The position numbers and the translations under genes are program-made. This document shows, in pieces, positions 17,894 to 33,195 of a stretch of 64,000 bases of DNA. The stretch is from Cytophagaceae bacterium. GTDB lineage: Bacteria; Bacteroidota; Bacteroidia; Cytophagales; Flexibacteraceae. Within the stretch, counting starts at the first letter, position 1, and every line of letters starts with the position of its first letter. The notes under the pieces are model-generated. The model did not search any database, was not told where the DNA came from, and saw only the letters and a program-made list of their open reading frames with translations. The DNA is taken from the NCBI GenBank assembly GCA_947458545.1, contig CANGYH010000001.1:930001-994000 (forward strand), written 5' to 3'.

Positions 17894-19180
17894 TCAGGGG
17901 CTGGGCGTTACCCAATCATAAGGGCGAAGGCCGTCTTGGATTTTGGTTAGGTCAATGTCTGGATCAACAAGCAGGCGGCTGGGCCGGCCATTTAGGGTTA
18001 CATAAACCTCTGCACGTACAGCCGGACTAGGCAGCCCTTTGGCGCGTGACCGCTGGGCCAAATAATGCGCATACTGCAAGATAAAATCTGGCTGGGTGCT
18101 CATCATTTTCTCTTGCTCGGGCGTGAGGTAGCCGGCATTGTTAATGGGGCCCCAACGGCCATTACGGCGATCTAGCACGTAGAACTGGGCTGTGCCTGCC
18201 TTTTCCATGAGCATGACACGCCAACTGAAACGGAACCCTTGCTCGTGCCAAAAGAGGCTGCCTGGGTAAAGCAGATACCGGAAAGGAAACAGTATATGAA
18301 AGGCAAACCAGCCTGCAAAAACCCACTTCCAGCCGCGGCTAACAGTTTGGCTGGGCAGAGGTACCTCGCCTTGCAGGGGAGCTAACCAGGGAAGGCGCGC
18401 ATCTAACAGTTGCCAGATGCGTTGGTGGATCTGGGAGGGAAAGAACACTGGAGCCACCAAAATCATGACCAGGGGGAAAACGCCAATGTCGAACATGAGC
18501 CCCACCAGAACATGAAACCCGATGACGGCCACATACCCCAGCCACCAAAGCCGGCGCTGGATTAATACCAGGGGGATGAAGGTGTCGTAAAGCATGCCGC
18601 CCCAGCTGAAAATCCATGCCATAGGAGGCCAGCTTAAGAGTGGCCCCAGAACGGGCAGGTTGCGTTGGGCGTTCATCCAGATGCGGAGGGGCATGGCATC
18701 TACTAGCCAGGCGGGTTGCATCTTGAAGAGGCCTGCGAGTGTGTAGAGGATGCCCGTTTGTAACCTGAACCAGGCTACGGTAAACCGCGACGCCCTGCCT
18801 GCCGTGCCGGGCACCAGGGCTATGCCAAGTGCCATCAGGGCCACAAAGTAGTAGTGGTTGAGGTACCAGGTGGCATCCAAGGTTTGCATCCAGACGAAGC
18901 TGAAGACGAACAGGCCCGCCCCTACCCTGGCCCAGGGCCTATAAAGCATTGCCAAGGCACCCATCAACTGGGCAGCCTGCAATACCTGCAGGCCCAACAG
19001 GCCCGGGTGCGGCACCCAGGCCAAGCCGTAATAATGGAATGAGAAGCGCCCGGGCGCAAAGTGGCTCTGTGCCCAACCCAATACCCAAAACCGCACCACC
19101 GAATAAGCCAAGGCTATACCAAGGCCGTTGCGCAGCGACCGCATGACGGCGTCGTATGGGTTGGTGGCTGCGGCGGACAT
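17894..19180 (-). CDS. HTTM / vitamin K-dependent gamma-carboxylase-like membrane protein
   Basis: A 428-residue inner-membrane protein with about seven or eight hydrophobic helices, resembling the HTTM domain of vitamin K-dependent gamma-carboxylases. YLNHYYFVALMALGIALVP matches the NNHSYLY region of human GGCX (His109 here against His160), and YTLAGLFKMQPAWLVDAMPLRIW matches the AGVKKLDADWV region, with Lys153 in the position of catalytic Lys218. FHVLVGLMFDIGVFP and PFRYLLYPGSLFWHEQGFRFSWRVML also fit. Bacterial homologues have no known vitamin K cycle role and their substrates are unknown. The ATG at 19180 is used; ATG 19204 and GTG 19216 are alternatives. It is divergent from a predicted outer-membrane barrel gene only 36 bases away. 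Confidence 0.75.
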   Translation of the reverse strand: MSAAATNPYDAVMRSLRNGLGIALAYSVVRFWVLGWAQSHFAPGRFSFHYYGLAWVPHPGLLGLQVLQAAQLMGALAMLYRPWARVGAGLFVFSFVWMQTLDATWYLNHYYFVALMALGIALVPGTAGRASRFTVAWFRLQTGILYTLAGLFKMQPAWLVDAMPLRIWMNAQRNLPVLGPLLSWPPMAWIFSWGGMLYDTFIPLVLIQRRLWWLGYVAVIGFHVLVGLMFDIGVFPLVMILVAPVFFPSQIHQRIWQLLDARLPWLAPLQGEVPLPSQTVSRGWKWVFAGWFAFHILFPFRYLLYPGSLFWHEQGFRFSWRVMLMEKAGTAQFYVLDRRNGRWGPINNAGYLTPEQEKMMSTQPDFILQYAHYLAQRSRAKGLPSPAVRAEVYVTLNGRPSRLLVDPDIDLTKIQDGLRPYDWVTPSP

Positions 19181-19216
19181 AGCGGCAAAGTTGCGACGGC
19201 CCATATTTGCCGACAC

Positions 19217-21257: not shown

Positions 21258-24200
21258 CTACTCGACCACGAAGCGGCGCATAACCTGGCGGCCATTGGCC
21301 GAGATTCGTACCTGGTAAACACCGGCAGGCAAGCCCGGCGCAGGTGCCAGCCCAAAGCTTTGGTGGCCGTTGATGAACGCTGCTGCCCGATGTACAAGCA
21401 AGCCCCTGGCATCCATCACCTGGAGGGAGACTTCGGTAGGCTGTGCAGACTCAAGATGGAGCTGCACCTGGTCTGCCCGGCCCGGGTTGGGATTGATCGC
21501 TGCCGTCAGGGCTGGCTGGGCATTGTTTACGGCCCAGTCTGCCAATGCCACGTTGCTAAACTGCCGTTTGCCGTTGCGGCTTATCTGGGCCAGGCGGTAG
21601 AGGTTGCGGCCGGGCATGGGGCTAAGATCTTGATAGGCATAACCCTGCCTGCGAATGCTTGTGCCGCTGCCATGGGCAGGTATCCACGCCAGGCGGGCAA
21701 AGCTTCTGCCGTCGGCGCTGCGCTCTAGGTAGAAACCGGCGTTGTCTTGCTCAGACTCTGTGGCCCAGGCCAGCTCTACGGCTTTGCCGGGTATGGCACT
21801 GGCTTTCAGGTCTGTAAGGGTTACGGGCAGGCTAATGTGGAGGTCGCCCATGCCGGTACCTCCAGTAAAGTCTGAGAATGAGGTTACGTCTGTCCAGTTG
21901 AAGTTGCGCTGGGTGCTGTCGTACGCGCCGCCAGCCGTCCAGGCGGTGCTGCTGTATTTGAAGGGCCTTATGGGCCTTGGGTCGTCGTTGCGCACCCGGA
22001 CAAGATCTGCGGTGGCGTTGTGGTTGTAGCGGACGTCGTAATTGATGGAGCCCGTGATACCGGTTGGTTCTAACTGCCAGTAGGTGTTTAGGTACCGGCT
22101 GGCCTCTCGGCGTTGCGGATGAGCCGCATTCACTACGCGTAAAGCTACCTGTGCGCCCGGGGCCAGCGTTGCTTGCTTCAGCCTAAAGTTGAAGGGCAAA
22201 AATCTGGTAGCCGTGCCAACTGGCAAAATGGTGATGTTGGGGCTGGCAGGCATAGGAGCTGCCTCTATCTGGCGAACGAGGTAGCCTGTATTGTCTGCCC
22301 AGATGTAGCTCTGGGCTGTGACGACGTCTGGCTTAACCTGGCAGTTTGCACCAAGCGTGAAATTGAACCAGTTGAGCCGCAGCAGGCCTCTGTCTAGCGT
22401 GAGTAGATCTGTGGCCGTGATATTGACACCAAGCACGGCTGCCCCGCTTGATTTATTGATTTGCAAGCGGCTGAAAGTTACCGGCGAGGTACCACCAATA
22501 GTCTGCGTAAGAAATCCGCGTAGGAGCACGTTGGTGTTGCCAGGGATGAAGGTGCCGTTGTTGGTCAGGTTGTTGAAGAGCTCCAGATTCTCGTTGCTGG
22601 CGGCGGTGCCTGCTATGTAAGTGCCCAGGTTGAGGAAGTTGCCCCGTACGATGATTTTACGGTTGGTGCTATTGTTGAAGGTGCCTGCGGCAACGGTAAA
22701 ATTGCCATTGAGGGTAAGCACGGCATCCAGATTTGAGATGGTACCCGTGCTGTTGATGACCAGGTTGTTATATACCGTCCGGCTTGCCGGTAGTGTGTGG
22801 CCTGCACCATCGAACTGTATGGTGCCGCCGCCGGCAGCCGTGAAGGTATTAAAGCTACCTGCAGGCAACACGGCCGTGGCGAGCCTTAAGGTTCCTGTGC
22901 CGGTAATGAGCCCCAGGTTATGACCCGTAGTTGTGCCCAGGTTGAGCGTACCGTTGATTAGGATACGCGCCAGCGATGCCCCGCTTACGGTAGCGGTTAC
23001 GGTGTGGCCGGGCCTGATTTCTACGGCAGACCCAGGCGATGGCACAGACCCCAGGTTCCAGGTGCCAGGATTATCCCATCCGCCGGTGCCGTTGCTCACG
23101 AAGGGTACAACGGTGGCAAACATGCCGGCCTCACCTGCGGTATAGTCTCCGCCTACGACAGATTGGTTGGAGAAGGTGATGGTATTGGCGCCGTTGTTTA
23201 CCACGCCCGTGAAAGTCTGCCAAGCCAGGGAGGGCAGTAGGCGTGCCCCTACGTAGAGGTTTTCATTGCCGCGGCCGGTGGCGCTGGTTTGGTCGTAGGT
23301 ATAGACCTGAGTCAGGTTGAGGCCTGCCAGGCCCGTGCTAGTAATGGCCCAGTAATAGTTAAGTGCCTGCACCCCGCTGGATACGGCCAGCGGGTGGACG
23401 TTGCTAACGGGTTTGATGGCAATGGTACCTACGGCCGTATTTGCTGTGGCATTGTAGCTAACGGGTGTGTACAGGTTATCTACCCCAATAGGCAGCATAA
23501 AGCTAAACGGGGTTGCCGGTGCCTGGCGGATGATACCACCGTCTGCGGCGTTGCCTGCCGTGCGGATCATGCGGGAGGCCGAGAAAGTGCCTGCCACAGA
23601 ACTGGCAGGGCCCATGGTGAGTGGCTGAGATTGTATGTCTAGCAAGCCGTTGACGAGGCTCAGCGTCCCGTTGACGGTGAAGCCCGCGGCCGCCTGAACG
23701 GCCAGCGCATTGTCTATCGTTAACGAACCAAACGCTCCCTGGCCTGAGCCGCTGATGATTTGGGTTAATGGTCCGTTGAGGATAAGCGCTCCGCTGGTGC
23801 TGGTATGCGTGGCCGAGTTGGCCACATTGCCTAAGACAGAGATGTTGCGGGCGTTGGCGTTGAGGGTACCGTTGGCCAGGGTAAGGTCTCGGTTGATGGC
23901 CCAGTTGGTGCCTGCCAGGGTTATGGTGCCGCTGGGGGTGCTGTTGTTTACTTCTACGCTGTTAAACACGGGCGACGACGTACCAGATAGGGTTTGGTTG
24001 CCGGTGCCAACGAATCGGGTGGTATTGAGGCCAGGGTTGTAAGTACCGTTATTTACCCAGTCTCCGCCGAGGCGCAAGTCTAGGTTATTGCATGTAAAGA
24101 CCGTGCCTGTATTGAACGTGCAGGCACCTAAGACTGTGAGTGGGTTGGTGTATAAAGAAGCCCGGGCATGGTTAAGGCTGCCCGAGCCCGTATTTAGGCG

Positions 24201-27200
24201 CAGATTCCACACCGGGGCTGTGGCGTTGATAGAGAAGGTGGTATTGTTGGGCGTGTAGGCACCCATTCCTAAAGCGATGGTACCACCGGTGACGGCAGAC
24301 GAGGCCGGCAGCAACAAAAGGTCTGCTATACCGCTGTTGGCCTGGCTGCGGGCGATGTTGATGTTGCCGTCCGACATCTGAAAGACCCCCTGGTTGACGA
24401 CCTCTAGCATGCCTTTGATGCTGGTGGCAGCGTTGCGGTAGCCAATGTTTACGGTGCCGCCCGTCTGGTTGTAAACCAGGCTGCCAGAGGCAGACACGGC
24501 ATTGCCCCGAATTTGCCCACCAACGTTGAGCGAGTCTCCGCCCATGTCGAGCAAGGGAGACCCAGCCGAGGCATACTGGATGGAGTTGTCGTTGGTGCCC
24601 GTTGTGCCTGCATCTATCCGCACGACGCCGGTGTTGCTGAGTTTGAGTGTACCGTCTAACTGAAGGCCGGCATTAGCACCGGTTGCCGTAACCAGAACTT
24701 TCCCATTGGCTACCCAAAGGCGGGTGGTAGAAGGGATACGGAAGTGCTCGGCAGAACTGCCAGAGCTAACCACCAAGTTTCGGTTTACTGACAGGCGGCA
24801 GGTACCGTTGAGCAACACCAGTGGCTTTAGCCCCGCTGCAAGAGCGCCATTGCCTGCAAGGCTCAAATTGGTGGCTGTGAGATCAACCAGGGGAGTTTGC
24901 GTAGTACCCTTGTTGATCATTAGCGTATGGAAACGGGTGGTTGAGCCACTGCCAGAGACGACAGCGTCTGTAGGCCCGGCCATCTCTACCTGGAGGCGGG
25001 TTTGGGTGCTAGAGCCAGGCTCGGTATCTAAAACGCCATTGTTGACGATGTCTCTTTGGATGGAGATGAAGTGCAGCAGGCTACCCCCTACCTGGGCATT
25101 GAAGGTGCCTGTATTGCGCAAAGAACCTGCAACGGTGATGAACCTTGCCGTGCCTGAGGATTGAAACTGGAGGGTAGTGCCTGCGGTATTTGTCAGGTCA
25201 GCGCCTACGGTGATGTCTCCGGTTGCGGCGCTGGCAAAGCGTACCGTACCGCTGCCGCCCAAAACGTTTAGATTGCCCGAAATGGTGAGTATGCGGGCAG
25301 GCAGGGTAACGATGCCAGAGGTGGGCACAACGTTTAAGTTGCGGTAATTTGCCAGCGGCAGGCCGTCTTGGTTAGAGGCCGGTATGGTAAAGTCTAGGCT
25401 GGTGCGGTAATACTCTACCGTGCCGCCTGTGTTAGCCGACAAGAAGGAGGTGAAGTTGCCACGCGGGAAGGACGGCGTAGCGGTAGAGCTGGAGACTCGG
25501 AAGGTGCCGCTAGAGGGCAAACCTGGCATTACCTGCCCATAGTTGTGGATGTTGGTACTGGTATGGTTGGTGCCAATGTCTAAGACAGCGGTAGAGTCTA
25601 TCCGGAGGCTCCCCAGGGTGATTGGCGTAGCTGCGGCAGGGAAGGTGACGGTGTGCCCAGGCCGGATGATGACAGGCGCATTGGCGGTAGGGATGGTGGT
25701 GCTGGGGTTTTGGAGATCAACGCCGCCTTGGGTGCGCTTCCAGGTGTTGGTTGCCGTCCACAGGCCTGTTTGGCGCGTCTCATACACGACGACACTGCCA
25801 AAGGCTGAAAGGCGGCCTACGGTATAGTCGCCATCAGGGCTGGTACTGTTGACGGTGAAGGTATTGGTGCTCTGCGTAGTGTAAGGGGAGGTGGCCCAAG
25901 CGTAAGCGCCTGGGGCAAAGTGGCCCACGACATAGCGGTTATCGTCGTTGGCATTGCCGCTGGGTGGTATGTCGGCATTTGCGTAGGCAGCGGTGAGGCT
26001 GGCAGAGGTGACGCCCGTCCAACCAGAGGTGGCAAGCTTCCAATGGAAGCGCAGGGCGCTATCTACGGTGGCGGGTGGAATTGTTATAAAGGGGTGGCGG
26101 GCATTGACCTGCACGATGTTGCAAGAGCCATAGACGGCTGCCGATGCCGAGAAGGTTACAGGGCGCAACTGCCCGCCAAAGGCCAATGGGGCCGTAAAGG
26201 GCGGCGTAACGCTGGAAAACTCGCGCGTGATGCCACCGTCGGTGGCCAGGCCTGCGCTGGTAAAGGTGCGGGTAGCGGTATGCCCGCCTGGCCCGATGAC
26301 CAGCGAAGCTGTGCGTGCCAGCCGAAGGTTGAAGGTCGTCAGATCGACGAGGCCATTGGTGAGGTTGCAGATGCCGTTGACGGTTTGGTTGGCCAGCAAG
26401 GCAACGCGGCTGGTGGCAGATCCGGCAAAGTCGAGGTTTGTGTAGGTGCCTAGCCCAGAGCCGCCCATATTTTGGGTGATGGTGCCCGTGGCCCAGATAC
26501 GGATGCGGCCGCTGCCAAGATGCGTGGCCGAGTTGTTGATGGTGGTACCTGCGCAGGTGATGGTCAGGCCACCGTCGTTAAGGGTACCTGCATTGAGGCT
26601 GAAGGCTCCGTTTACGGTAGGGCTAGAGCCTGAGAGGGTAACCGTACCACCTGCATTGAGGTTGTTTATAGCAAAACCGCCAAAGGCAACGGGCTTGTTT
26701 AGTGCAAGGCTTTGAGCTACCCGGCTAGGCGTTGTGCCGCCCATTACGAAAACATTGCTACCGGGCGTAAACCGGCTGTTGGCCGCAAACGTGGCGTTGC
26801 CGCCAACTATCACCCCGGCCGTGCTGGCACAGTTTAGCCAGACGCGGGGCCCTACGTTGAGGTCGTTCAGGACGATGAGGGCGCGGGCTGGTAGGGTAAC
26901 CGTCGTGTTGGAGCTGTAGGTAAGCGGAATAAGCCGCACCGAGACCCCATTGGTATCGGCCTGGTTGCTGATGAGGTTTACGTTATAGAATGGTGCCGTA
27001 GAAGTGATGCCAAAGTTGTTTGTGCTGGTGAGCGGGTCTGAGGGTACGACTACGTTGAGGGTGCCGCCGGTAACCTCTATGTTGGCGGGGTCGCAGCCGA
27101 TCATGATGCTGTTGTTGCCGCCGCCCGTGGAGCCCGCATTGGTGGCATAAACGTTTATGGCACCACCTGACCATTTGAAGACGTTGGTGGTAAAGGGCCA

Positions 27201-30200
27201 TGCGAAGGTTCCATACTCGGGCCGGGGGCTATTGGTACTACCCAACAGGTCCATTTGCCCACCGGTCATTTCGAAAATACCGCGTGGGGTGGTAGAGAAG
27301 AAGATGGAGGGCCTAAACCGGGACGTCCGGAAATATCCGCCGTATTGGCGATACTCGCCTGCTCCCCTGGTTACGAAACCTTCTGCTGTACCGGCGTCAA
27401 AGAAACCTCGGCGAATTTCGAAATTGCCATAACCCAACACCGCCATAGGGTTTGAGTTGGAAAATTGAGACATCCATACGCGGGCGCCGTCAATCACAAT
27501 AGCTGCACCAGCGTTGATCCGCCACTGCCCGGCAGGGTTAACAAGGGCCGGAATACTAATCCGCTCGCCGAGGATTACGGTCCCATAGCGGATGCTAAGG
27601 GCACGGTATTGCCTGGTGTTGATGTCATTTACCGACCCGCTGTCGGCCTGATTGCTGTTGCCAAGCAGGTTAAAAAAAGCAGAATCAGCGGTAGATATCT
27701 GCAGTGCGAAAGTGGGGTCTATACCCTTCTGCACCTCAATGCTGTGGAAGTTGGTGGCTGCATTGCAGGTAACCACATTGTTGCTGGCTCCCAAAAAACG
27801 TAGCCGTACAAAACCATTGTTTGGTGTAGTACCTAGGTAAGAGGCTACGAGCGGTGGGGTACGGTTGGTAAAGTTGCAGGTGCCGTTGTTAACCAGGTCT
27901 CCCCACACGTCCATGTTGTGGTTGGCGTTGTTGGTCGAGGTTGTCAGGCTGGCACTTGCGGCTATGGTCACATTGCGCAAGACTGAGATCCAGACGCGGC
28001 GATTGCTTTCGCTGCCAATGACGACGTTGCCGGCGGCTACAGAGAGATTGCCGTTTAAGCGCCAAACCCGTGCCTGGCCTTGGGTGGCAAAGGTTTTGGT
28101 GCCTGTGCCAGATAAGGTTAGGTTGTTGTATGTAAGCTGCGTTAGCGGCAGGTTGCCGGTAACGTTGGCGTACTCTACTGTGCCGCCGTCTGCGGATACG
28201 AAATTGTCGTATAGGCCCGTTGGTAGAGATAGCGCAGTACGGCGCAAGGTGCCCATGCCGCTGACAACGCCAAATGAGAGCGTGGTAAGGCTGCCAGCGT
28301 CTAGCGTTGCGCCCTCTTGCAGCGTGACGCTGTTGACGCTTTTGCTGCCTGAGGGCATGGTTACGGTATGGCCGCGTAACACAACGACATTGTCGTTGGT
28401 GTTGGGGCCGCCTGCCGGGGGCATGTTTATTTGGGCAGAGCCGGTGGGGTCTGTGGTCCAGGTGGCGGGGGTGTCCCAAGAGCCACTGGTAAATGAGTAA
28501 TAGGTGCGCGGTAGCTGCCCTGCACGGGCCAGGCTCCAGATATCTTCTAAGAAGGTGTTGCCGGCTGCATTAACGCCAAAGGTTTGCCGGCCCACGAGGC
28601 CAGACACATACCCACTTGTAGCGGTAAAGACGGTACCGCCTTGCGTGCGGATGACAAGGTTAGGTGTGCCATTCACCTCAGAGCCATCGAATGAAAACTC
28701 TAGTTGTGCATCGGTTATAGAGCTGATGTTGGCGGTTTGTACACGCCAGTTGCGGCGGAGAATATTAGCCGTTGCACTTGTAAAGGGTATCGTCTTAATG
28801 GCAATGGTTGCAGTACCTGCAACGGTAGCCGAGAGCGCATTGATTTGCGCGGCGGCATAGATGTTGCCGGTGCCTATCGGGTAGATAAATTCTAGCGGCG
28901 AGGGTAAGCCGCATGCCACGAACTGCCCGGCCGAGAGGGCTTCTTTGATCAGTGCGCCAGGGCCCGAGAGCCCGTCTTGCTGGATCATGCAATCGTTGCC
29001 GAAGGGGTAGTTGCCACGGACGCGGCTGTCGGGCCCCAGGGTGATGTCGAAGGCACCTTGTACCAGGTACCCGGCTGCGTTCAAGTTTAGGTTGCCGTCT
29101 ATCCGGATGGGAGTTTGTAGGAGCAGGTTGCGGCCATCCTTGTCTAGTGTCAGGTCAGAGAAGCGGTAGGTACCTGTGCCGGCCAAGGTTTGGTCTGCAC
29201 TTGGGTTGGTAAAGCGAACGGTGGTGCTGGTGCCACCGTCTAGCATGCCGTTGCAGGTCAAATTGCCGCCGGCAAGCTCTAGGGCAACGCCATTTAGCAA
29301 AAGGGTATCTTGAGCATCTATGGTGATGGAACCTTTTGATGTGGCCGGCACGGAAAGCCTGCGGCGGCCAATACCGGTAAAAAGGATGTTTGCAAAGGTG
29401 TCGGCAGGTACCTCTGTGATGTTGTATGAGGCATTGCCGTAGTACACCACGGTACTGGTGTTGAGGAAGGCGGCAAAGTTGCCCGAAGGCCACTGGACAT
29501 TGCCCCCGTTGACGCCCGTCAGGCTCAGGATGCCGCTGCCGGTTACTGTGCCAAGGTTGCTGTTGTGAAAGGTGGCCAGGCGTAGCTCGCTGCCGGTGGG
29601 GATGCTGGTTTGGCTTGCGTTGATGGTGGCTGATACGACCACTGCCCCGCCGGTGTTGGCCAGCGCAAGGCGCTGAAAGGTGTTGCCATTGCGAATCGTC
29701 TGGGTGCCTGCACCGTCGAAAAGAACCTCTGAGCCACCCGTTACCAGATTGGTTACAAGGTTGGTAACGTCAAAATCTCTGGCTACCTGTACCTGGCCAG
29801 CACCAGCGAAAGTGAGCGTGGGCACGGTAATGTTGCCTCCGCCGTTGAAATTAGCATTACTGCCTATGGTGATGGATGCACCTGCGCTTGAGCTGACGTC
29901 GCCTGTGGCAGCCAAGGTATTGCCTGCGGCCAGGCTGAGTGCACCGCCGCTAAGGTCTATGTTATTGACGCGAGACGTGATGTTGATGCCTAGGGTGACG
30001 ACACCGCTGCCGATAACTACATTATGTACCTGGCTCCCCCCACCGGCTTGGCCGGGATAGTCTGCCGTAGTTGCATCGCCAGACTTGGCCCAACTGCTGG
30101 CGCTTTGCCACGACCTTACGCCACCTACATAGGTAAATACAGCTTGGCACCAAGCCGGTGCTGCCGTAGCCAGCAACGACGAAATGGTGACCAAAAAGTG

Positions 30201-30230
30201 CCTGACGAAACGCTTAAATGTAAACTGCAT
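21258..30230 (-). CDS. Giant modular T9SS-exported surface protein (2990 residues)
   Basis: A very large cell-surface or secreted protein. The signal peptide is MQFTFKRFVRHFLVTISSLLATAAPAWCQ (start 30230). Four long modules follow, starting near residues 30, 575, 1480 and 2370. Each opens with a W-rich motif (SGSWDTPATW, TGLWTATNTW, TGGWDNPGTW) and a GHTVT motif, continues as a long Gly/Asn/Thr/Ser-rich beta-helix-like run (phrases such as LNGNLSV, NNLTLSGTGT, NNGTFNAQ), and closes with a compact domain (LNYYWAITSTGL, NTYWQLEPTGI). The end has a linker (DNAGFYLERSADGRSFARLAW, NLYRLAQISRNGKRQFSN) and a type A sorting domain (INPNPGRADQVQL ... GVYQVRISANGRQVMRRFVVE). An adhesin or matrix role is plausible; no catalytic motif seen. 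An in-frame start at 30278 is less likely. Confidence 0.9.
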   Translation of the reverse strand: MQFTFKRFVRHFLVTISSLLATAAPAWCQAVFTYVGGVRSWQSASSWAKSGDATTADYPGQAGGGSQVHNVVIGSGVVTLGINITSRVNNIDLSGGALSLAAGNTLAATGDVSSSAGASITIGSNANFNGGGNITVPTLTFAGAGQVQVARDFDVTNLVTNLVTGGSEVLFDGAGTQTIRNGNTFQRLALANTGGAVVVSATINASQTSIPTGSELRLATFHNSNLGTVTGSGILSLTGVNGGNVQWPSGNFAAFLNTSTVVYYGNASYNITEVPADTFANILFTGIGRRRLSVPATSKGSITIDAQDTLLLNGVALELAGGNLTCNGMLDGGTSTTVRFTNPSADQTLAGTGTYRFSDLTLDKDGRNLLLQTPIRIDGNLNLNAAGYLVQGAFDITLGPDSRVRGNYPFGNDCMIQQDGLSGPGALIKEALSAGQFVACGLPSPLEFIYPIGTGNIYAAAQINALSATVAGTATIAIKTIPFTSATANILRRNWRVQTANISSITDAQLEFSFDGSEVNGTPNLVIRTQGGTVFTATSGYVSGLVGRQTFGVNAAGNTFLEDIWSLARAGQLPRTYYSFTSGSWDTPATWTTDPTGSAQINMPPAGGPNTNDNVVVLRGHTVTMPSGSKSVNSVTLQEGATLDAGSLTTLSFGVVSGMGTLRRTALSLPTGLYDNFVSADGGTVEYANVTGNLPLTQLTYNNLTLSGTGTKTFATQGQARVWRLNGNLSVAAGNVVIGSESNRRVWISVLRNVTIAASASLTTSTNNANHNMDVWGDLVNNGTCNFTNRTPPLVASYLGTTPNNGFVRLRFLGASNNVVTCNAATNFHSIEVQKGIDPTFALQISTADSAFFNLLGNSNQADSGSVNDINTRQYRALSIRYGTVILGERISIPALVNPAGQWRINAGAAIVIDGARVWMSQFSNSNPMAVLGYGNFEIRRGFFDAGTAEGFVTRGAGEYRQYGGYFRTSRFRPSIFFSTTPRGIFEMTGGQMDLLGSTNSPRPEYGTFAWPFTTNVFKWSGGAINVYATNAGSTGGGNNSIMIGCDPANIEVTGGTLNVVVPSDPLTSTNNFGITSTAPFYNVNLISNQADTNGVSVRLIPLTYSSNTTVTLPARALIVLNDLNVGPRVWLNCASTAGVIVGGNATFAANSRFTPGSNVFVMGGTTPSRVAQSLALNKPVAFGGFAINNLNAGGTVTLSGSSPTVNGAFSLNAGTLNDGGLTITCAGTTINNSATHLGSGRIRIWATGTITQNMGGSGLGTYTNLDFAGSATSRVALLANQTVNGICNLTNGLVDLTTFNLRLARTASLVIGPGGHTATRTFTSAGLATDGGITREFSSVTPPFTAPLAFGGQLRPVTFSASAAVYGSCNIVQVNARHPFITIPPATVDSALRFHWKLATSGWTGVTSASLTAAYANADIPPSGNANDDNRYVVGHFAPGAYAWATSPYTTQSTNTFTVNSTSPDGDYTVGRLSAFGSVVVYETRQTGLWTATNTWKRTQGGVDLQNPSTTIPTANAPVIIRPGHTVTFPAAATPITLGSLRIDSTAVLDIGTNHTSTNIHNYGQVMPGLPSSGTFRVSSSTATPSFPRGNFTSFLSANTGGTVEYYRTSLDFTIPASNQDGLPLANYRNLNVVPTSGIVTLPARILTISGNLNVLGGSGTVRFASAATGDITVGADLTNTAGTTLQFQSSGTARFITVAGSLRNTGTFNAQVGGSLLHFISIQRDIVNNGVLDTEPGSSTQTRLQVEMAGPTDAVVSGSGSTTRFHTLMINKGTTQTPLVDLTATNLSLAGNGALAAGLKPLVLLNGTCRLSVNRNLVVSSGSSAEHFRIPSTTRLWVANGKVLVTATGANAGLQLDGTLKLSNTGVVRIDAGTTGTNDNSIQYASAGSPLLDMGGDSLNVGGQIRGNAVSASGSLVYNQTGGTVNIGYRNAATSIKGMLEVVNQGVFQMSDGNINIARSQANSGIADLLLLPASSAVTGGTIALGMGAYTPNNTTFSINATAPVWNLRLNTGSGSLNHARASLYTNPLTVLGACTFNTGTVFTCNNLDLRLGGDWVNNGTYNPGLNTTRFVGTGNQTLSGTSSPVFNSVEVNNSTPSGTITLAGTNWAINRDLTLANGTLNANARNISVLGNVANSATHTSTSGALILNGPLTQIISGSGQGAFGSLTIDNALAVQAAAGFTVNGTLSLVNGLLDIQSQPLTMGPASSVAGTFSASRMIRTAGNAADGGIIRQAPATPFSFMLPIGVDNLYTPVSYNATANTAVGTIAIKPVSNVHPLAVSSGVQALNYYWAITSTGLAGLNLTQVYTYDQTSATGRGNENLYVGARLLPSLAWQTFTGVVNNGANTITFSNQSVVGGDYTAGEAGMFATVVPFVSNGTGGWDNPGTWNLGSVPSPGSAVEIRPGHTVTATVSGASLARILINGTLNLGTTTGHNLGLITGTGTLRLATAVLPAGSFNTFTAAGGGTIQFDGAGHTLPASRTVYNNLVINSTGTISNLDAVLTLNGNFTVAAGTFNNSTNRKIIVRGNFLNLGTYIAGTAASNENLELFNNLTNNGTFIPGNTNVLLRGFLTQTIGGTSPVTFSRLQINKSSGAAVLGVNITATDLLTLDRGLLRLNWFNFTLGANCQVKPDVVTAQSYIWADNTGYLVRQIEAAPMPASPNITILPVGTATRFLPFNFRLKQATLAPGAQVALRVVNAAHPQRREASRYLNTYWQLEPTGITGSINYDVRYNHNATADLVRVRNDDPRPIRPFKYSSTAWTAGGAYDSTQRNFNWTDVTSFSDFTGGTGMGDLHISLPVTLTDLKASAIPGKAVELAWATESEQDNAGFYLERSADGRSFARLAWIPAHGSGTSIRRQGYAYQDLSPMPGRNLYRLAQISRNGKRQFSNVALADWAVNNAQPALTAAINPNPGRADQVQLHLESAQPTEVSLQVMDARGLLVHRAAAFINGHQSFGLAPAPGLPAGVYQVRISANGRQVMRRFVVE

Positions 30231-30652
30231 AGGTGCCGCTTTTAGAACTACGGAATAGCCCTGTCTGACCACTTGCAAGACGCCGGCGGGAGAAGCCGAG
30301 GCGATTTACAGGGTTAGACGAAACAAAAGTGGTAGCCTTGCCTGACGCAAAACAGGCCTAAAAACAGGCGTTATAAGGTGGGTAAGAAGAAGGCTTAAGT
30401 CCCTTATCTTCTTGCAGAAACCAGCGTCCTGGCATGTAAGGTGCCAGCCCACGAGGATAGGGATTGAATCACTTTAGCTTTATTACCACCTTCCATGATA
30501 TGGAAAACACTGTACTCATGCAGGGTCCGATATGGGCGTACAGTGTTTTAGCGTATGTAAGGAAGCCCTGCTGAGGAAGGCTGCCATTCTTGTCAGAATT
30601 GAGGCGCATTGAGGTAGAATCAGCACCTAGAAATGAAAAATAAACCAAAGAA
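30231..30652. other. Intergenic region upstream of the giant gene, with hairpins
   Basis: About 420 bases without a convincing gene. It must hold the promoter of the giant gene; a TACCACTTTTG segment on the minus strand around 30325-30335 is a loose -7 candidate. Two inverted repeats (see the entry at 30491) lie in the middle. A 74-codon frame antisense to part of it has no recognisable character and is not called. Confidence 0.5.
30491..30549. repeat. Adjacent inverted repeats
   Basis: TTCCAT-GAT-ATGGAA (30491-30505) is directly followed by AAAACACTGTAC (30504-30515), which is perfectly matched by GTACAGTGTTTT (30538-30549) across a 22-base loop. The 12-bp stem is A-rich on its left and T-rich on its right, so a bidirectional terminator, a structured small RNA or the trace of a mobile element end are all possible. 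Confidence 0.6.
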
Positions 30653-30685: not shown

Positions 30686-31492
30686 CTAAGCAAGTGGGCT
30701 ATTTTTCTCTTTGCGAAAATGCTGATAAACGAGCTTATCCATCCAACCGGGGGCCCACTTATTAAGCCAGACTGTAAGGCGCCCTTGCCTTGTTAAAACA
30801 AGGGTGCGCCTGCGGGCCTGCTGCGCTTTATAGATGGCATCTGCCACGGCAGCGGGCTGCATAATCTTACCTTCTTCCAGAGGACTTTCGCCTTGGGCGA
30901 GGCCTTGCGCATTGAGCGCACGGTTGCGTATGGCAGAGGCGGTGAAGCCTGGGCAGGCGGTAAGAAAGTGAAGGCCCGTGCCGTAGTATTCGGCACGCAA
31001 ACTTTCTAAAAATGCCTGGAGGGCTGCCTTGCTGGCCGAGTAGCCGGTGCGGGCCGGCAGGCCCCGGTAACCTGCAATAGAGCTAACGCCCACCAAGCTG
31101 CCCTTGGTTTGCTCTAGCTGAGGCAGAAAAGCCTTGGCGGTATAGACGGCGCCAAGAAAATTGACCTGCATCAATTGCTCGATGACGGCCATGTCTGCAT
31201 CGCGAAAGAGGGCCCGCATGCTGATGCCCGCATTGGCCACCACCACCGAGGCCGGGCCAAGCTGCGCCCATACGGTTGCAGCCAGGGCCTGGCAGTCGGC
31301 CAGGAGGGCTACGTTGCCTGGCAAGGCAAGCACGGGTGTGCCATATGCCCGCAAGGCAGTCGCGGCAATCTCCAGTGCAGAGGCGTCTCTGCCAGTGATT
31401 GCCACGGCGTATCCGGCGTTTGCGTAGCGATGGGCCAGGGCAAGCCCAATGCCCGAGCTACCGCCAGTGATGACGCAGACGGGGTGGCTCAC
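30686..31492 (-). CDS. Short-chain dehydrogenase/reductase (SDR)
   Basis: A 268-residue classical SDR, NAD(P)-dependent. The cofactor motif is ITGGSSGIGLALA (TGxxxGxG), the NAG motif is VVANAGIS, and the catalytic Ser-Tyr-Lys set is GVSSIAG...TGYSASKAAL. The hydrophobic C-terminus (TVWLNKWAPGWMDKLVYQHFRKEK) recalls the DHRS7-like or membrane-associated SDRs. Substrate unknown. Its start codon is GTG (31492), overlapping by 4 bases (GTGA) the stop of the upstream pseudouridine synthase gene, so the two are translationally coupled; a terminator follows. Confidence 0.9.
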   Translation of the reverse strand: MSHPVCVITGGSSGIGLALAHRYANAGYAVAITGRDASALEIAATALRAYGTPVLALPGNVALLADCQALAATVWAQLGPASVVVANAGISMRALFRDADMAVIEQLMQVNFLGAVYTAKAFLPQLEQTKGSLVGVSSIAGYRGLPARTGYSASKAALQAFLESLRAEYYGTGLHFLTACPGFTASAIRNRALNAQGLAQGESPLEEGKIMQPAAVADAIYKAQQARRRTLVLTRQGRLTVWLNKWAPGWMDKLVYQHFRKEKNSPLA

Positions 31493-33195
31493 CGTTTGCC
31501 TCCTTTCGTAGAGGCACCCAAGTGTTTGATGTTGATGATCTCTTGCGATGACAGCATCCGGTATTTGCCGCGTGGCAGGTCTTTCTTGGTCAGGCCTCCG
31601 TACATGACACGGTCTAGCCGGAGGACGTTGTAACCCAGATGCTCGAAGATGCGGCGGACGATGCGGTTGCGGCCGATGTGGAGCTCGAGCCCGATGGATT
31701 TGCGGTCGGGCGTTAGCATGGCCATATCGTCAATGTGGGCGGGGCCGTCTTCTAGCATTAGGCCTTTGCGGATGGCTTGGGCATCGCTATCGCTCAAAGG
31801 CTTGTCTAGGTCTACCTGATAGACTTTGCGAATCTCGAAGCTTGGGTGCATCAGACGCGTGGCCAGGTCTCCGTCGTTGGTCAGCAGAAGCAGGCCAGTG
31901 GTGTTGCGATCTAAGCGGCCAACGGGGTATATACGCTCTTTGACGACGTTACCGAGCAGGTCCATCACGGTACGGCGGCCCTCTTCGTCCTCTAGCGAGG
32001 TGATGTAATCCTTGGGCTTGTTGAGCAGGATGTACACGTGCTTTTCGGGGCGCAGAAGGCGGCCGCCTAGGCGGACTTCATCGTCTGGATTGACCTTGAA
32101 CCCAAGCTCGGTGACGGTTTTGCCGTTGATGGCGATGCGGCCGTCTTCGATGTAGCGGTCGGCCTCGCGGCGGCTGCATACACCGGCGGCGGCAATGAAT
32201 TTGTTGAGGCGGATTTTGCCGTCAGACTCCTCGAGCGGTTCGTTGTCTTCTACCTCTTGGGCACGCTTGCGGGTGCGCTCTTGCTCTCGGCGCAGGGCAT
32301 TATCTGTAAAAGATTTTGGTTTGCGGCCATCGGCAGGCCGGGCTGCGTCTAGCGGGCCACGGCGGATTCTGTCAGCGTCGTCGCCGTCTCGGCGGGGTGC
32401 GGGGCGGTCTGATCCGCCACGGAACTGTCTCTTTTGCTCGCCGTAGCTGCGGCCGCCATCCTGGCCTGGGCGGCCATAGGGGCGTTCTGTATTGCCTTGG
32501 CCGCCACGGTCTGTATGGGGGCCGCGGTTGTCGCGGCGGTCGTTGTCGCGGTTGAAGGGTGGGCGGGCAGAGGGGCCGCGCTCGTCGCGGCGGAAGGGGC
32601 GGTCGCCACCGGGCCTGTCGTTACGGGCGAAGGGTCTGTCTTGGCCAGGTCTGTCTTGGCCGGGTCTGTCGTCTCGGCGGAAAGGCCTATCGCCTTGTGA
32701 ACGATCATCCCTGCGGAAGGGGCGATCCTGACTGGGTCTGCCGTCTCTGCGGAAGGGGCTGTCTCCTGGGGGCCTGTCTCCGCGGGGCCTGTCGGCACCA
32801 AAGGGACGGTCTCCGCCGCGCTGGGGCCGGGCATCATTACCAAAGGGACGGTCTCCGCCGCGCTGAAACCTGTCTCCTCTGTCGGAGGGTCGGGCCGCAT
32901 CTCGGCTGGGGCGCTCATTACGGTTGAAGGGGCGGTCGTTATCTCGGGCCGTGCCGCGGCGGTCGTTGCTGCGGGGGGCGCGGTCGTCGTCTCGGCGGAA
33001 GGGACGATCGTCGGCACCATCGCCTCCGGCACCCCGTACAAAACGGTCTTTATTGAAGCCGCGTGGGCTGCCTGAGGAGGCAGGGCGGGCGGCTGAAGGC
33101 TTGCGGCCATCGCGGCCGGTAGTGGGGCGGCCCTCACGGGCGGCAGAGCGGCCTTTGCCTGATGGGGCATCGGAACCGCGGCGGGGAGTTCTCAT
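31489..33195 (-). CDS. RluB/RsuA-family pseudouridine synthase with a ~320-residue disordered Arg/Asp-rich N-terminus
   Basis: A 568-residue protein. The C-terminal 240 residues are a standard RsuA/RluB-type 23S/16S rRNA pseudouridine synthase: S4 RNA-binding domain from about residue 326 (IRLNKFIAAAGVCSRREADRYIEDGRI), catalytic motif PVGRLDRNTTGLLLLTNDGDL with Asp near 427, and the C-terminal LHIGRNRIVRRIFEHLGY segment. The N-terminal part is low complexity, with many copies of RPFRRDDR / DRPFGxDRP / RPGQDRP, hence strongly charged and disordered. Bacteroidota often carry such extensions on this enzyme; their function is unknown, perhaps RNA binding or condensation. The next gene is the SDR (4-base overlap). 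Confidence 0.92.
   Translation of the reverse strand: MRTPRRGSDAPSGKGRSAAREGRPTTGRDGRKPSAARPASSGSPRGFNKDRFVRGAGGDGADDRPFRRDDDRAPRSNDRRGTARDNDRPFNRNERPSRDAARPSDRGDRFQRGGDRPFGNDARPQRGGDRPFGADRPRGDRPPGDSPFRRDGRPSQDRPFRRDDRSQGDRPFRRDDRPGQDRPGQDRPFARNDRPGGDRPFRRDERGPSARPPFNRDNDRRDNRGPHTDRGGQGNTERPYGRPGQDGGRSYGEQKRQFRGGSDRPAPRRDGDDADRIRRGPLDAARPADGRKPKSFTDNALRREQERTRKRAQEVEDNEPLEESDGKIRLNKFIAAAGVCSRREADRYIEDGRIAINGKTVTELGFKVNPDDEVRLGGRLLRPEKHVYILLNKPKDYITSLEDEEGRRTVMDLLGNVVKERIYPVGRLDRNTTGLLLLTNDGDLATRLMHPSFEIRKVYQVDLDKPLSDSDAQAIRKGLMLEDGPAHIDDMAMLTPDRKSIGLELHIGRNRIVRRIFEHLGYNVLRLDRVMYGGLTKKDLPRGKYRMLSSQEIINIKHLGASTKGGKR

Follow-up and report, generated by a model that had tools for sequence, protein, structure and literature searches.

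What kind of protein is built from several long modules that share a plan without being copies of one another, how did it arise, and what might it do? We asked these questions of a giant gene on the reverse strand of a 64,000-nucleotide stretch of DNA (hereafter the window; contig CANGYH010000001.1, positions 930,001 to 994,000) from a Cytophagaceae bacterium (assembly GCA_947458545.1), whose genome is 3.23 Mb in size and 99.7% complete. The original prediction, made from the letters alone, described a secreted (T9SS) protein of 2990 residues with four modules that grew by old duplications. All positions given below are those of the window.

The gene, its tail and its export

The extent of the gene was as predicted, a single open frame that encodes 2990 residues from an ATG at 30230 (Table 1). 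The frame at 21258-30278 (-) is open over 3006 codons, up to a TTG at 30278, and residues in frame numbering are those of the ATG protein plus 16. A predicted model of the first module placed a helix, at low confidence, at residues 6-19, over the N-terminus that resembles a signal peptide. Threonine, glycine, alanine, asparagine and serine are abundant in the whole protein and charged residues are scarce. The promoter motif of Bacteroidota, TAnnTTTG, was absent from the 460 bases upstream of the gene, and an Rfam scan of the window returned 0 matches.

Assignment to the type IX system was borne out by the NCBIfam model TIGR04183, which gave 32.6 bits when run on the C-terminal 212 aa and 30.2 bits on the full-length protein, against a cut-off of 23. 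The corresponding Pfam model, PF18962, reached 25.5 bits on the C-terminus and 21.9 bits on the whole protein, below its cut-off of 27. A stretch of the form LPV.L..F ... W.TA.E ... F..ERS.DG lies ahead of the tail, and by eye a similar one precedes the tail in several relatives. The same genome encodes SprA (TIGR04189, 1949 bits, cut-off 200) and contains 90 T9SS tail matches at E ≤ 0.001, making it likely that the protein is exported; it is probably displayed on the cell surface.

Table 1. Features of the gene and its product, with window coordinates; residues are in frame numbering.
Feature	Position	Strand	Basis
Whole gene, 2990 aa	21258..30230	(-)	ATG start at 30230
Signal-peptide-like N-terminus (basic start, hydrophobic core)	30141..30230	(-)	Read by eye
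Module M1, about 576 aa	28503..30230	(-)	Residues 17-592
G8-like opening of M1 (weak)	29826..30119	(-)	19.4 bits, own profile (M1 among its seeds)
Second G8-like stretch in M1, resembling the later part of an opening	29451..29720	(-)	32.1 bits, own profile (M1 among its seeds)
Closing domain C1	28527..28886	(-)	Alignment and own profile
Module M2, 902 aa	25797..28502	(-)	Residues 593-1494
G8-like opening of M2	28182..28493	(-)	93.5 bits, own profile; Pfam G8 14.6 bits, below cut-off 22.9
Closing domain C2	25815..26195	(-)	Alignment and own profile
Module M3, 884 aa	23145..25796	(-)	Residues 1495-2378
G8-like opening of M3	25425..25775	(-)	71.0 bits, own profile
Conserved mid-solenoid stretch of M3	24354..24539	(-)	Conservation, 16 rows; residues 1914-1975, peak 1914-1938
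Closing domain C3	23133..23498	(-)	Alignment and own profile
Module M4, 433 aa	21846..23144	(-)	Residues 2379-2811
G8 opening of M4	22824..23093	(-)	PF10162, 24.1 bits in M4 alone, cut-off 22.9
Closing domain C4	21858..22229	(-)	Alignment and own profile
Pre-tail domain	21498..21845	(-)	By eye; no Pfam family
T9SS type A C-terminal sorting domain	21261..21497	(-)	TIGR04183, 32.6 bits, cut-off 23

Modular plan and kinship of the modules

Cutting the protein at its closing domains yields four modules, each of which starts with a G8-like stretch, continues as a long, presumed beta-solenoid and ends in a closing domain of ~125 aa. Four modules had been predicted, with lengths of 550-900 residues; the number stands, and the range fails for M4 (433 aa) unless the C-terminal tail is counted with it. 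The recurring GHTVT motif was found at residues 620 and 1525 as described and at 2408 rather than about 2405 (636, 1541 and 2424 in frame numbering), with the expected spacings of 905 and 883; M1 has VVIGSGVVT in place of this stretch. The W-x-x-P-x-x-W motif said to stand before each GHTVT is present in M2 (WDTPATW) and M4 (WDNPGTW) and is not kept in M3 (WTATNTW), while M1 has WQSASSW.

Module pairs were compared by BLAST, with 200 full and 200 local shuffles plus a single reversal as controls. We observed 189 bits for M2 and M3 (best control 47.0), 99 bits for M2 and M4 (40.4) and 75.9 bits for M3 and M4 (46.6), scores that mark these three modules as clearly kin at the level of sequence. 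Compared alone, M2 and M3 aligned over almost their entire length with 26% identity (E 8e-31), and M4 matched the beginning and end of both, not their middle. M1 scored 78.2 bits with M3 (best control 55.8, the reversal) and 57.0 bits with M4 (46.2), and its 40.4 bits with M2 did not exceed the best of the shuffles and the reversal (45.8). M1 therefore appears weakly tied to the other modules, mainly via its later part. The claim of a shared plan holds by sequence for M2, M3 and M4, and for M1 it draws on the closing domain, the weak G8-like stretches and a beta-helix model that starts after its first 68 residues.

Likeness between modules could be compositional, as in an ordinary low-complexity, beta-rich giant, and the similarity of M1 and M2, which lies within its controls, speaks for such an explanation. 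The other five pairs, however, beat all shuffles and the reversal. Our own profiles, grown on the first set of related frames, gave nothing on reversed frames at 1e-4 (best 2.8 bits for the closing-domain profile and 1.6 for the G8-like profile), and a tree of closing domains groups them by position, as described below. A compositional origin is disfavoured, and we consider it very improbable. Hydrophobic periodicity along the solenoids gave weak peaks at differing lags (best z 2.7-3.3 of 59 lags), and we therefore claim no coil length.

G8-like openings

Across the whole protein the Pfam G8 model PF10162 scored 37 bits and passed its cut-off in M4 only, while M1 and M3 scanned singly gave no match. 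The match in M4 spans profile positions 1-53 of 124 (1-83 in a genome search), so that the M4 opening does not reach a full 124-position match. When the window protein and related frames were taken together, 11 of 29 G8-like openings matched PF10162 at E ≤ 0.1. Among wider relatives, Pfam G8 was detected in 52 of 194 genomes, over the cut-off in 44, with the genome of the window included.

A widespread closing domain

Each module had been predicted to end in a compact domain containing a tryptophan, and this was confirmed: C1 to C4 are four mutually alignable copies of about 125 aa, and all 31 copies that were aligned keep the tryptophan, which in C1 to C4 precedes ATSG, TSTG, EPTG and QTAN. 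Scanned singly, the 31 copies from the window and related frames could not be credibly assigned to any family of Pfam or NCBIfam. Each library yielded three stray families, each in one of the 31 copies; DUF2510 (E 0.00035), a fimbrial chaperone model (E 0.0021) and four further, weaker matches were all taken as chance. Antibody chains, the sole matches of the closing-domain profile among PDB sequences (E 0.1), were likewise taken as chance. The domain would be a beta-sandwich that joins one segment to the next.

At E ≤ 1e-5, closing domains turned up in 145 of the 295 genomes sampled from the class and in 62 of the 296 sampled from the phylum; both samples include the window's own genome and have further genomes in common, and up to 15 candidates were scored in each genome, so that copies per genome are to be read as 'at least'. 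In the frames that were read (cut 1e-4), 63 of 93 closing domains were followed directly by a G8-like opening, and 63 of 92 G8-like stretches lay directly behind a closing domain. For 23 of the 30 closing domains with no G8-like opening after them, the domain was the last one detected in its frame; the other seven occur at loci L029, L031, L039 (three), L025 and L041. Giant T9SS proteins are frequently annotated from the tail alone. Neither Pfam nor NCBIfam has a name for this common closing domain, so a single profile for it would give many giant frames an annotation.

Fold models of M1 and M4

We modelled M4 and M1 with AlphaFold2 from shallow alignments of 8 and 6 rows, respectively. The M4 model has a mean pLDDT of 60, with block means of 80-94 at residues 11-110 and lower values afterwards; that of M1 has a mean of 67, with 64-87 over residues 71-400 and less than 50 at residues 1-68. 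Closing domains were modelled with block means of 27-56 (M4) and 37-75 (M1).

Used by itself, Foldseek yielded no hit at E ≤ 0.001 (best 0.55 for M4 and 0.042 for M1). A second aligner, restricted to the Foldseek candidates (293 chains for M4 and 999 for M1), placed an autotransporter passenger first for M1 (Z 14.6, rmsd 3.0 over 192) and a tailspike first for M4 (Z 11.1, rmsd 5.2 over 243); by its own note, a Z under about 13 may, for repeats, reflect just a common arrangement, and above that value there were two M1 rows only, one with an rmsd of 16.4. Most of the best 50 rows per model were tailspikes, autotransporter passengers, tapirins and other beta-helix proteins, and those for M4 include nine GlmU entries and one of the effector SlrP. 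The helix of GlmU is left-handed; the best-matching structures suggest that the helix here would be right-handed. A search of M4 against PDB sequences gave no match up to E 10.

The models of M1 and M4 thus resemble parallel beta-helices, with modest confidence. The original prediction would have been contradicted by modules lacking a common fold, and the two that were modelled both came out parallel beta-helix-like. Such matches tell of an arrangement, not of a function. With usual values for coil size and rise, a rod of four such segments would be very roughly 50-65 nm long.

Age of the module order

We built trees of closing domains from the window protein and its relatives. In the first (46 domains, 17 frames), C1 of the window grouped with the first domains of L027 and L028 (100/99), C4 likewise (100/96) and C2 with that of L028 only (99/90), while C3 fell within an open, unstarred group of third domains. 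For the second tree (55 domains, 18 frames at 17 loci), labels for position were set by spacing before the tree was built. It required four label changes, where three is the least possible and shuffled labels averaged 29.7, with none of 200 shuffles as low. The set drew on 16 loci that had been picked partly for window-like spacing, which favours the position labels. First domains formed one clade (99/96). Second, third and fourth domains require two changes each and are therefore not clean clades: the third row of L060 sits among second rows, and the fourth rows form two groups. The first two rows of L031 and the fifth of L029 were left out of this tree, as were the frames L025, L026, L030, L032-L036, L039-L042, L054, L056, L058 and L059.

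The closing domains thus group by position and not by genome, which supports duplication of the modules before these proteins diverged. This agrees with the predicted growth of the window protein by old duplication and divergence rather than by recent tandem repeats. The plan may have spread over orders by descent or by transfer between lineages. L029 (G002:C166), from a genome of the window's own family, falls among f24 family rows at each of the four positions, and its placement may reflect transfer or old paralogy. Locus L036 (G006:C122) has four closing-domain units that are closely alike, lie at intervals of about 330 aa and form two very close pairs; recent tandem growth therefore also happens in such proteins.

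Spacing of the domains is kept as well. For the second, third and fourth module-closing domains, start-to-start distances of ~900 and then ~410 aa were seen in five of 17 frames that were not picked by spacing (window 899/422, L027 894/410, L028 911/437, L029 908/407 and L031 910/424; L029 has a fifth copy behind the four), and in eight of the 17 frames with copies in the set of loci picked partly by spacing. M3 is 886-923 aa long in 16 rows. M3 and the start of M4 had matches (E ≤ 0.001) in 13 of 39 genomes, counting that of the window; a contig search for relatives found two, in Chitinophaga ginsengisoli and a Pontibacter, which together with the T9SS point to Bacteroidota as the phylum, while plasmids gave no match to M3 and viral contigs gave no match. 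Behind the last closing domain the relatives vary, with PKD and a tail or with FN3 and no recognised tail, while the module spacing is kept. Read from the sequence, then, the protein has a T9SS tail and four modules (M1 weakly so) of old common origin in a kept order.

The C-termini of L048, L051 and L052 have no type A tail by NCBIfam or Pfam, match FN3 and, by eye, have a DxNxDG-like end; Pfam Dockerin_1 was seen in L048 only, at 13.9 bits, below the cut-off of 22.9. These ends are perhaps another export or anchor signal. The genome of the window also has a frame of 5583 codons on contig G000:C4, from 30844 (-) to an upper end of about 47600 by calculation (L037, L039 and L043), with a T9SS tail, a G8 match below cut-off and, by our own profile, four closing domains in stretch L039.

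Conservation and possible function

We propose that the gene product would leave the cell via the Sec and type IX systems and remain attached to its outside, where four beta-helix segments would make up a long and stiff rod. In each segment the G8-type stretch would form the first helix turns, as in TMEM2, and a separate closing domain would end the segment and link it to the next. The rod would offer one or more faces for ligand binding and adhesion, most likely to polysaccharide, and would serve as a stalk or adhesin, not as an enzyme; that the ligand would be a glycan is suggested by analogy with other beta-helix proteins. To this reading, in which an exported rod on the surface binds some ligand, possibly a glycan, as stalk or adhesin, we give a probability of roughly 0.55.

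Alternatively, one or more modules could be beta-helix lyases or hydrolases that cleave polysaccharide, combined in one surface protein. PL6 alginate lyases, an inulin lyase and phage depolymerases are among the matches listed for M1, and a galactosidase entry, presumably GH110-like, is among those listed for M4. In the family of G8 proteins, one report calls the G8 domain of HYBID/CEMIP essential for hyaluronan depolymerisation (PMC10276149), whereas TMEM2 itself had no detectable hyaluronidase activity according to another (PMC10206443). No enzyme family exceeded its cut-off with Pfam and NCBIfam on the whole protein or with Pfam on single modules, and no Pfam family of beta-helix polysaccharide lyases matched any of the four modules at E ≤ 10, in one library, which an undescribed lyase family would escape. 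None of the 10 neighbouring frames scanned with Pfam was a carbohydrate-active enzyme.

The invariant positions bear on the same question. In M3, the 31 columns invariant in 16 rows consist of G, P, F, W, N, Y, V, Q and L only, mainly glycine and then P, F, W and N, leaving no D, E, H, K or R, and M4 has one H among 19 invariant columns (13 rows). Against this stand seven D, E, K or R columns among the 65 that are invariant in the smaller M2 set (8 rows), and in M3 the 12 columns of D, E, H, K or R among the 102 that are nearly invariant. Because of these columns a catalytic role keeps a place among the explanations, as an unlikely one.

A structural coat or matrix scaffold, in which the modules stack or form an extracellular layer with no specific ligand, would suit the composition of the protein, in which T, G, A, N and S abound and charge is scarce, the mostly glycine invariant columns of M3, and relatives that keep the module spacing while the parts behind the last closing domain differ. 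Conservation of M3 is, however, uneven: residues 1914-1938 in the middle of the solenoid tie with 1589-1613 in the opening at 0.55, against a mean of 0.378 (16 rows). In M2 and M4 the most conserved windows lie within the opening. Together with the invariant columns, we take this distribution to fit a rod that has one or more binding faces. The positional identity of the modules also exceeds what a generic spacer would need, and we regard a pure scaffold as rather improbable.

A wider reading goes beyond the ligand-binding rod. The protein could belong to an undescribed, old family of Bacteroidota surface proteins with a fixed order of four G8/beta-helix modules, each position having a long-kept role. 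The closing domain would then be a domain family new for the phylum, and the conserved mid-solenoid stretch of M3 would bind a ligand shared across orders. We hold this tentatively, at less than even odds. The kept module order poses a testable question, namely the role of each position.

Comparison with known proteins

The closest parallel is with the G8/beta-helix units of TMEM2 and fibrocystin. In TMEM2, a G8 stretch leads into a parallel beta-helix and then a large beta-sandwich (PMC10206443), and fibrocystin has two G8-PbH1 regions, of which the second is described as a possible tandem duplication (PMC13424714). TMEM2, HYBID/CEMIP and fibrocystin/polyductin would share with the window protein, as modelled, the passage from G8 to parallel beta-helix. 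Unlike TMEM2 and fibrocystin, the window protein has four units, a different closing domain and a T9SS tail, and passes the Pfam G8 cut-off in M4 only. TMEM2 entry 8c6i was not among the matches listed for the M1 and M4 models, and Pfam found no lectin-like domain in the window protein, whole or as single modules. The enzymatic role of TMEM2 is disputed, and the window protein offers a bacterial comparison.

Tapirins are cell-attachment proteins of Caldicellulosiruptor that bind cellulose. They are reported to attach to lignocellulosic material (PMC9933333). Beta-helix matches to tapirin C-terminal domains (6n2b, 6n2c) were seen for both modelled modules. M1 aligned with 6n2b at Z 11.5 (rmsd 2.8 over 149), and M4 with 6n2c at Z 10.8 and with 4wa0, which we take to be a tapirin, at Z 10.1 (rmsd 3.3 over 157), all within the range that may reflect a common arrangement. 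The entry 4wa0 ('possible adhesin') was also the best PDB sequence match of the G8-like profile, with an E of 0.012 (0.32 for the best single stretch), followed by an unrelated Zoocin A entry at E 0.017. We see no convincing homology to tapirins in these sequence comparisons.

With the giant T9SS type A surface proteins of Bacteroidota the window protein shares a signal-like N-terminus, a type A tail and a length of thousands of residues. SprB-type gliding adhesins among them carry repeats of another kind, whereas here four diverged modules stand in a kept order. We found no description in the open-access papers searched of a four-unit G8/beta-helix plan in a bacterial protein with a T9SS tail. 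The plan that can be named here is one of repeated G8, helix and closing units, whose order recurs across taxonomic orders.

Genomic neighbourhood

The gene is flanked by a TerC family gene and by a pair encoding an SDR protein and a pseudouridine synthase; these are housekeeping-type neighbours, and within the window they give no hint at a ligand. Loci L025-L043, 19 in all and with short flanks, gave no tblastn match (E ≤ 1e-8) to any of the 10 window neighbours. Scanning one neighbour at each of ten loci of relatives gave an M1 peptidase (L045, L047), MutS (L051, L052), an EngA-type GTPase (L050, L053) and, once each, an amino acid kinase, a PKD/T9SS protein, an IMPDH and a DsbA-like protein. 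Pairs of loci agree and no neighbour is common to all; we therefore drew no functional inference and dropped the neighbourhood as a clue.

Two other genes of the window were noted in addition. Near the giant gene, at 17894-19216 (-), lies one whose product has HTTM and vitamin K-dependent gamma-carboxylase lumenal domains, and the pseudouridine synthase at 31489-33195 (-) has an S4 domain, preceded at the N-terminus by a long region in which R, D, G and P are abundant.
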